A stretch of DNA of 64,000 nucleotides from Enterococcus florum (GTDB lineage: Bacteria > Bacillota > Bacilli > Lactobacillales > Enterococcaceae), in NCBI RefSeq assembly GCF_004309355.1, contig NZ_BJCC01000007.1, positions 62,001-126,000 of the forward strand. The letters run 5' to 3'. The notes under the pieces are model-generated. The model had not been told where the DNA came from, searched no databases, and worked only from the letters and a program-made list of their open reading frames with translations. Positions 56,820 to 58,419 of this stretch are shown here, piece after piece. The translations under genes and the position numbers were made by a program. The number at the start of each line of letters is the position of its first letter. The stretch's first letter is position 1.

Positions 56820-56849
56820 TAAAAAGACTGCACCCTCAAGGATGCAGTC
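56820..56849 (-). terminator. Terminator of the NADH peroxidase gene
   Basis: GACTGCA (56826-56832) / TGCAGTC (56843-56849), followed on the minus strand by TTTTT. It lies just after the stop codon of the peroxidase gene (56858). Confidence 0.75.
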
Positions 56850-56857
56850 AAAAATAG

Positions 56858-58219
56858 TTACGCGTTGTTTTCTTGCTGCAAGGCCTTCAATCCAGCCATT
56901 CCCAGTAAATTCCACGGGGTATCGAATTCTGGTTGGAAGAAGAAATCCGCATAAGCCAGTTGCTCTACAGTAAAATGCGTTTGGATCGCAATCGAGATCG
57001 CATTGATGTTGGCTGTTAAATCTTCCTTCGACATGATTTGCGCCCCTAAGATCTCTAGATTTTCCGGATCATAGACCAGCTTGAACATCATTCGAGTCTT
57101 TAAGCTTTGCGGTACAAAATCCATCAACGTATCTTGATCCAAGAAAACGGATTTTGTTTTCATACCCAGCTTGCTGGCCATCTGATCATTCAGACCGGTT
57201 GAAGCAAATTTATAATCAAATACACGCAAAGCAGAAGAACCCTGAACACCTGGGAAAGGATGATTCGCCTCTTCCAGATTACGGACAGCATAACGACCTT
57301 GGCGGCGAGCATTAGTGGCCAGTGAAATATTGACCTCCGTCTTTCCAGGGTTGTATTGGATCAATGTGGCATCCCCTACGGCAAATACATCTGGTTCGCT
57401 GGTGCGCATATATTCATCCGTTTTGATCATGCCGCTTGGCAATAATTCCACTGCATCCTTCAGCCAGTCTGTATTCGGGCGAACGCCGGCAGACATAACC
57501 ACCATATCGGCTGGATACTCTCCTTTGTTGGTTACGACCTTTTTAACATGGCCTTCGTCATCGCCGATAAATTCAACCACTGATTCGCCCATGGCCAAGG
57601 TGATGCCGTGGTCGACCATGTCTGATTCAAGCACATCGGTGAATTGTTTGTCCAAATAAACTCCCAGCGGACGATCGATGATATCCACCAGTGTCACCTT
57701 TTTGCCAGCTACTGCAAAGGATTCTGCGGCCTCGATGCCGATATAGCCTACGCCGATTACCACGACATGCTCAATGTCCGGGTCGACCGACAGCATTTTC
57801 AAATCGATGGTGTCTTGACGCCCACGCATTGTTTTAATGTTTGCCAGATCATTTCCCGGTACTGGCAAAATGAATGGATTTGCGCCTGGACTTAAAATCA
57901 GTTTGTCATAGCTTTCTACTCGCGTTTCTCCCGTTACATGGTTCCGTACTTCTACTTGGTGTCTGTCAGGTTCTACTTTGGTAATTTCAGTATTTGTAAA
58001 CACGCGGACCCCGCGTTGTTCCATCTCTTCGGCCGTGGCATAGCGAATCGAATTCACATCTTTCACGATACCTTCGAGATACATTTGCGTGCCTCATCCC
58101 ATGAATGAGATAAAGTCGCCCTTTTCATACCACTGGATCTCCGCATCGGGCTGCGTCAGCAGTAATTCTTCCACTGCTTCATAGCCGCCGTGGGAAGAGC
58201 CTAAAACAATTACCTTCAT
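56858..58219 (-). CDS. npr: NADH peroxidase with TGA at the catalytic cysteine codon
   Basis: FAD-dependent enzyme that reduces hydrogen peroxide with NADH. ATG 58219 follows GAGGAGGAAATTGGC and opens a frame that matches E. faecalis NADH peroxidase over its full length (453 codons against about 447 residues). The FAD motif LGSSHGG, the catalytic His10, the NAD site [15 protein letters not shown] and the C-terminal dimer region [12 protein letters not shown] are all present. Codon 42, where the redox-active Cys42 belongs (FISF-x-x-Cys-G), is TGA (58094-58096). Everything after it is open and conserved. This is either a selenocysteine codon, an inactivating mutation or a sequencing error. If TGA is read as stop, the product is a 41-residue fragment; a restart at ATG 58084 would lack the FAD motif. 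Confidence 0.85.
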
Positions 58220-58419
58220 GCCAATTTCCTCCTCAATGTTTGATACACCTTAATTGTAGCGTATCTCTTGTGAAAAGAGGAGTAATAGCCCTTCGACTAT
58301 CGATCTGTCCTTTATCAGCCGGTCGCCTCTCGCACTTTCTGCCGCTTTCTTGTATAGTAATGAAGGATGAACTCGTTTCTTTTTCATTCAGTCAATCGTA
58401 ATCAAAGAGGAGTGAAACA

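Follow-up and report, generated by a model that had tools for sequence, protein, structure and literature searches.

NADH peroxidase (Npx/Npr) is a classic enzyme for a stabilised cysteine-sulfenic acid, with roles assigned to His10, Glu14, Arg303 and residue 42, its only redox residue. Here we consider an npr gene that carries an in-frame TGA at codon 42 and lies within a 64,000-nucleotide stretch of Enterococcus florum DNA, the whole of which is called the window below. Its product is about 69–70% identical to the E. faecalis NADH peroxidase (1npx/1joa) and collinear with it over the whole length, keeps His10, Glu14 and Arg303, and likewise has one redox residue at position 42. The two proteins differ at this very residue, which is Cys42 in E. 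faecalis and a predicted selenocysteine (Sec42) in the window, as well as around it (L40M, S41G and M44T). The locus matching the E. faecalis enzyme in our collection (L016) encodes one cysteine in total. The two forms also differ in genomic context: the Sec npr occurs together with selA, whereas the Cys form of the relative G021 is found in a genome without selA.

Among flavoproteins, Sec has been predicted in the FAD-dependent oxidoreductase WP_011365774.1, a CoA-disulfide reductase/NADH oxidase, according to the available parts of PMC9312934 and PMC13188914. This protein belongs to the same flavoprotein superfamily as npr and has Sec predicted in place of Cys, but it is assigned to TIGR03385 and bears the motif UGxP in the accessible part of the 2026 listing, as compared with UGTQ in the window's npr and UATQ in the orthologue L180. 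The available part of PMC1794560 names a Geobacter metallireducens NADH oxidase with Sec, which may be the same protein as WP_011365774.1. A Sec NADH peroxidase was not found in the literature searched on selenoproteins, selenocysteine, NADH peroxidase and Enterococcus, and NADH peroxidase is absent from the selenoprotein families in the accessible part of an older listing.

As for the Sec machinery, the portions available of PMC1794560 and PMC4561486 describe SelD without other markers in E. faecalis and in many Enterococcus species, respectively. The part of PMC8894896 at hand reports selA and selB in E. durans LAB18S, and the part of PMC5029168 at hand does not mention Enterococcus. Our finding of Sec-decoding genes in 19 of 20 genomes from the Enterococcus group studied here contrasts with these SelD-only descriptions.

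An In-Frame TGA at the Catalytic Codon of npr

The npr coding sequence occupies positions 56858..58219 of the minus strand, including the terminal TAA (56860-56858), and encodes 453 residues when the TGA is read as Sec. It starts with the ATG at 58219-58217, preceded by the ribosome binding site GAGGAGG (58228..58234, minus strand), as read from the sequence. The TGA at codon 42 (58094..58096, minus strand), predicted to encode Sec from the sequence and from 21 distinct orthologues, is the sole interruption of the frame before the TAA, so that the otherwise complete frame with a good ribosome binding site described in the first-pass annotation is borne out. A hairpin with a T tail resembling an intrinsic terminator lies 3′ of npr (56826..56849, minus strand); it is a consensus match only, with one such hairpin found vs. 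1.7 expected from shuffled sequences. The next gene encodes an aromatic acid exporter family protein; upstream of npr, the opposite strand carries a DUF441 gene.

The best solved match of the npr product is the E. faecalis NADH peroxidase (1joa/1npx; residues 1-450, E 8.8e-204), and in this alignment codon 42 falls on the catalytic Cys42, exactly where the TGA had been placed from the sequence alone. The product contains the Pfam domains Pyr_redox_2, Pyr_redox and Pyr_redox_dim; thus, it has an FAD/NAD fold by sequence, with NADH peroxidase as its closest solved relative. It scored below both NCBIfam cut-offs for the H2O-forming NADH oxidase/CoA-disulfide reductase class, reaching 376.9 of 600 bits with NF046103 and 318.7 of 578.8 bits with TIGR03385.

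The TGA at Codon 42 Is Shared by Related Species

We searched 86 distinct genomes, comprising 60 relatives and 29 genomes of the Vagococcus family (which we take to be Vagococcaceae), with the overlap removed, and found the codon-42 TGA in npr in 21 of them. Among the 60 relatives, the npr orthologue of 15 (78-100% identical) contains a single in-frame TGA, at codon 42 every time; 14 of these relatives are among the 20 that belong to the window's genus, and one is from another family. In the Vagococcus family, whose members were identified as Vagococcus by coding sequences identical to named records, the TGA npr is present in seven of the 29 genomes, one of which is shared with the set of 60. 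An npr without the TGA was not detected at E<=1e-150 in the 20 genus genomes or in the 29 Vagococcus-family genomes. In all, the 39 TGA loci fetched correspond to 21 distinct coding sequences, the other 18 being identical same-species copies from a second collection.

In a scan of named genomes, where the best 80 of 96 npr loci were kept, codon 42 is TGA in 18 and TGT/TGC in 61, and it could not be read in L130 because of a frame shift near the start. The 18 TGA loci among these best 80 come from Enterococcus pallens, E. avium, E. raffinosus, E. devriesei, E. hulanensis, E. viikkiensis, E. alishanensis, E. xiangfangensis, E. dongliensis and three Enterococcus without a species name, as well as from Vagococcus allomyrinae, V. 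proximus, V. fessus, V. elongatus, V. acidifermentans and V. vulneris. In an order-wide draw of 395 genomes, npr was found at E<=1e-140 in 47; 12 of these genes have one TGA, all from the Enterococcus and Vagococcus groups, 34 are stop-free, and one has a TAA. In E. raffinosus, the TGA npr resides on plasmid records of ~1-1.2 Mb (L239-L241; five records matched, three read), and a RefSeq record of such a plasmid bears a single 1359-nt CDS running across the TGA, named FAD-dependent oxidoreductase. The 86 database proteins that we found, in turn, are 369-409 aa long and have been called as fragments whose lengths imply a start after the UGA.

In the Genomes Searched, the TGA Form Occurs Only Together with selA

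None of the sel genes lies in the window, according to the first-pass annotation, but a search of the rest of the genome, as it had proposed, revealed all of them (selA, selB, selC and selD) on another contig. There, contig 8 carries prdC, prdA and prdB followed by selD, yedF, selB, a cysteine desulfurase family gene, selA and the tRNA-Sec with the anticodon TCA; the desulfurase family gene scored below the cut-off of the SclA model. The sel genes thus adjoin a Sec-dependent D-proline reductase operon (L162, L174; G000 contig 8), in which PrdC has a TGA at CxxU and PrdB at UxxC (GUGTCH), the Sec sites given for these families in the available part of PMC9312934.

Using curated cut-offs, we found selA in 21 of the 60 relatives and, within the Vagococcus family, in 14 of 29 genomes, one being shared, which gives 34 of 86 overall. 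In the 60 relatives, selB and tRNA-Sec passed their cut-offs in the same 21 genomes as selA, and selD in 27 genomes, the 21 among them; the co-occurrence with selB, tRNA-Sec and selD refers to these 60, and that in the 26 Vagococcus-family genomes added to them refers to selA. Among the 86 genomes, the TGA npr is confined to those with selA (21/34 vs. 0/52 without it), the genomes being related, so that these counts are not independent events. The remaining 13 of the 34 selA genomes have no TGA npr.

Several further observations were made on these genomes. An orphan selD, over the cut-off in the absence of selA, selB and tRNA-Sec over theirs, is present in G021, G026, G033, G037, G045 and G054, and a selD with one in-frame TGA, possibly encoding a Sec-containing SelD, lies at G043:C39:119740-120639. 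G001 has the sel genes and no TGA npr; it encodes an npr-like protein of 430 aa (L019:1501-2793; 55-56% identical) without the active-site segment. In L235 (G078), the sel genes stand beside putative genes for glycine reductase components, thioredoxin and thioredoxin reductase, as judged from translations, while L206 (G031), from a genome without a selA match, encodes a PrdB with TGT for TGA and lacks the post-UGA hairpin of the Sec forms. The TGA-bearing genomes G013, G074 and G078 show no PrdB, and we considered whether some genomes might have npr as their sole selenoprotein; this idea was dropped because the G013 assembly is split into 160 contigs and the glycine reductase-like genes of G078 lie by its sel genes.

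The Predicted Sec Form Is under Purifying Selection and Has No Cysteine

For the 21 distinct sequences, dN/dS was 0.045 over codons 1-41, 0.053 over codons 43-56 and 0.092 over codons 57-200. Purifying selection therefore acts both before and after the TGA. The first-pass annotation had offered selection or very recent loss for the lack of any further damage, and these values agree with the former.

We compared the 21 Sec rows with 63 Cys rows, the latter made up of L016-L018 and of all named loci without the TGA except L130 and L137 (60 of 62). His10 and Glu14 are present in 21/21 Sec rows and Arg303 in 20/21, and cysteine is absent from all 21 distinct Sec proteins. Around the active site, the Sec rows invariably have Met40, Gly/Ala41 and Thr44 (21/21), as against Leu40, Ser41 and Met44 in the Cys rows (63/63). 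In seven alignment columns, residue 42 included, no residue is common to the two sets.

In a quick tree built from the 21 Sec and 29 of the 63 Cys rows, with 11 residues around the active site masked, 20 of the 21 Sec rows formed one clade (99% SH-aLRT). The remaining one, L180, which is 64% identical to the window's npr, fell without clear resolution beside the Cys forms of the E. faecalis group. The masked tree thus shows two changes of state, though the Sec form may also have had a single origin.

A Candidate SECIS Hairpin Downstream of the TGA

The first-pass annotation had noted a weak stem-loop directly after the TGA and doubted it as a SECIS element, its loop lacking the expected G. The named pairs do exist: in a 30-nt fold, the hairpin (58064..58091, minus strand) is formed by CACG (58088-58091) with CGTG (58064-58067) and by GTATCT (58077-58082) with AGGTAT (58068-58073). 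The description of the loop did not fully stand, as an additional pair, T58077-A58073, closes a CGA loop (58074-58076), which lies 17 nt after the UGA and has G in the second place. This fits the rule for bacterial SECIS elements given in the available part of a 2026 review (PMC13188914), namely a G as the first or second nucleotide of a small apical loop located mostly 16-37 nt after the UGA, and answers the doubt in part. A hairpin of this kind, with the loop 16-24 nt downstream, is, however, present not only in 20/20 Sec sequences (the 21 minus one near-duplicate) but also in 63/63 Cys sequences, and covariation is poor. A 42-nt fold including the UGA prefers another structure.

The minimum free energy of the window's sequence was not below that of shuffled sequences (z 0.16 and -0.19). 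When the Sec genes were compared with their own synonymous recodings over positions 10-30, a stretch picked after the hairpin had been seen, they folded more stably: the mean z was -1.52 and 13 of 21 fell in the lowest tenth, vs. a z of -0.05 and 2/40 for the Cys controls (40 of the 63). Over stretches 1-33 and 1-42, there was no stability signal relative to synonymous recodings. RNAalifold applied to 19 sequences gave a different fold with no compensatory pairs, and hand-drawn registers contained one doubly changed cell or none. In a model of 3+3 pairs, 92.6% of the cells were paired, vs. 36-70% after sliding, and by two measures 48/500 and 40/500 shuffles did equally well. The window's own six-pair register reached 85.2% (50-66% after sliding) and did not outperform the shuffles (500/500). 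An Rfam search gave no match at the site and two chance-level matches elsewhere.

Just after codon 42, synonymous change in the Sec genes is lowish, with ranks of 18-46 out of 381 for windows that start at codons 42-45, whereas the lowest values in the gene are reached at codons 65-70 and 77-81; in the Cys genes, the stretch after codon 42 is among the highest (ranks 265-271 of 273). PrdB, encoded in the same genome and presumably served by the same Sec machinery as npr, also reads GUGT at Sec. Its post-UGA hairpin is stronger, with the loop UGAU and a 26-nt core that is identical across all 28 TGA-bearing PrdB loci that were folded; npr has no such hairpin. Taken together, the npr hairpin is a plausible SECIS candidate that fits the published rule, as the Cys controls do too, with covariation absent or weak.

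Alternative Explanations of the TGA

A single base change separates TGT or TGC from TGA, and the first-pass annotation had accordingly offered an inactivating mutation or an error as an alternative, in which case the protein would end after 41 residues. We regard such a pseudogene or sequencing error as extremely improbable, since the same TGA recurs in 21 distinct coding sequences from 21 of the 86 genomes, all with selA, as well as in the three E. raffinosus plasmid records read of the five matched, and dN/dS is 0.045 before the TGA and only 0.05-0.09 after it. Nor did the comparison of codon 42 in close relatives uncover only Cys codons, as sister species share the TGA.

The TGA might instead be a true stop followed by a restart at the ATG 58084 (residue 46); the resulting flavoprotein would be shorter and would lack the active-site residue. 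Although GAGG lies 7 nt before this ATG and the 86 database proteins of 369-409 aa fit, as judged by length, starts after the TGA, residue 46 is not Met in 3/21 orthologues (Leu in two, Gln in one), strong purifying selection acts on codons 1-41, which include His10 and the beginning of the nucleotide-binding region, and the occurrence of the TGA only with selA would be left unexplained; we therefore consider a restart very improbable. The purifying selection, together with the residue pattern, is explained neither by a pseudogene nor by a start at residue 46. Readthrough of the UGA by a near-cognate or suppressor tRNA inserting another amino acid would accord with the fact that no strong SECIS was shown; yet the TGA is present only in selA genomes, among the 60 relatives also with selB and tRNA-Sec, and it replaces a catalytic residue that is Cys in 61/62 of the other named orthologues (best 80 of 96 loci), one being unread, which makes this explanation exceedingly unlikely.

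Discussion

In this work, we obtained evidence that the TGA at codon 42 of npr very probably encodes Sec, such that a full-length selenocysteine NADH peroxidase is predicted. This reading follows from the confinement of the TGA to genomes with selA, the Cys codon in the other readable named orthologues, the purifying selection before and after the TGA and the absence of cysteine; because, among the relatives searched, the TGA is found only in species carrying selA, we predict that the gene is not broken but yields a full-length selenium protein. A Sec-containing NADH peroxidase, first suggested from the window as one possibility, has thus gained support from the sel genes, the TGA in sister species and the purifying selection.

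As to the catalytic cycle and the role of the SECIS, we infer that SelB, bound to the hairpin just after the UGA, would deliver Sec-tRNA, that hydrogen peroxide would oxidise the Sec42 selenol to a selenenic acid, and that FAD reduced by NADH, with His10 as a partner, would restore the selenol directly without a resolving thiol. It seems reasonably likely that these proteins constitute an old clade of cysteine-free, one-selenol flavoperoxidases, in which Sec42 would be the sole redox residue and FADH2 formed with NADH would reduce its selenenic acid directly, without the need for a resolving thiol, glutathione or thioredoxin.

For the annotation of this family, the prediction implies that the 86 database proteins, post-UGA fragments by length, would be devoid of the active site. 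The natural Sec and Cys versions, which are about 70% alike in related enterococci, would make it possible to test directly what advantage selenium brings to a flavin peroxidase with a single redox residue. If the prediction is true, these enterococci and vagococci would possess a naturally occurring Sec counterpart of the textbook Cys-sulfenic acid enzyme, retained only alongside the Sec machinery.
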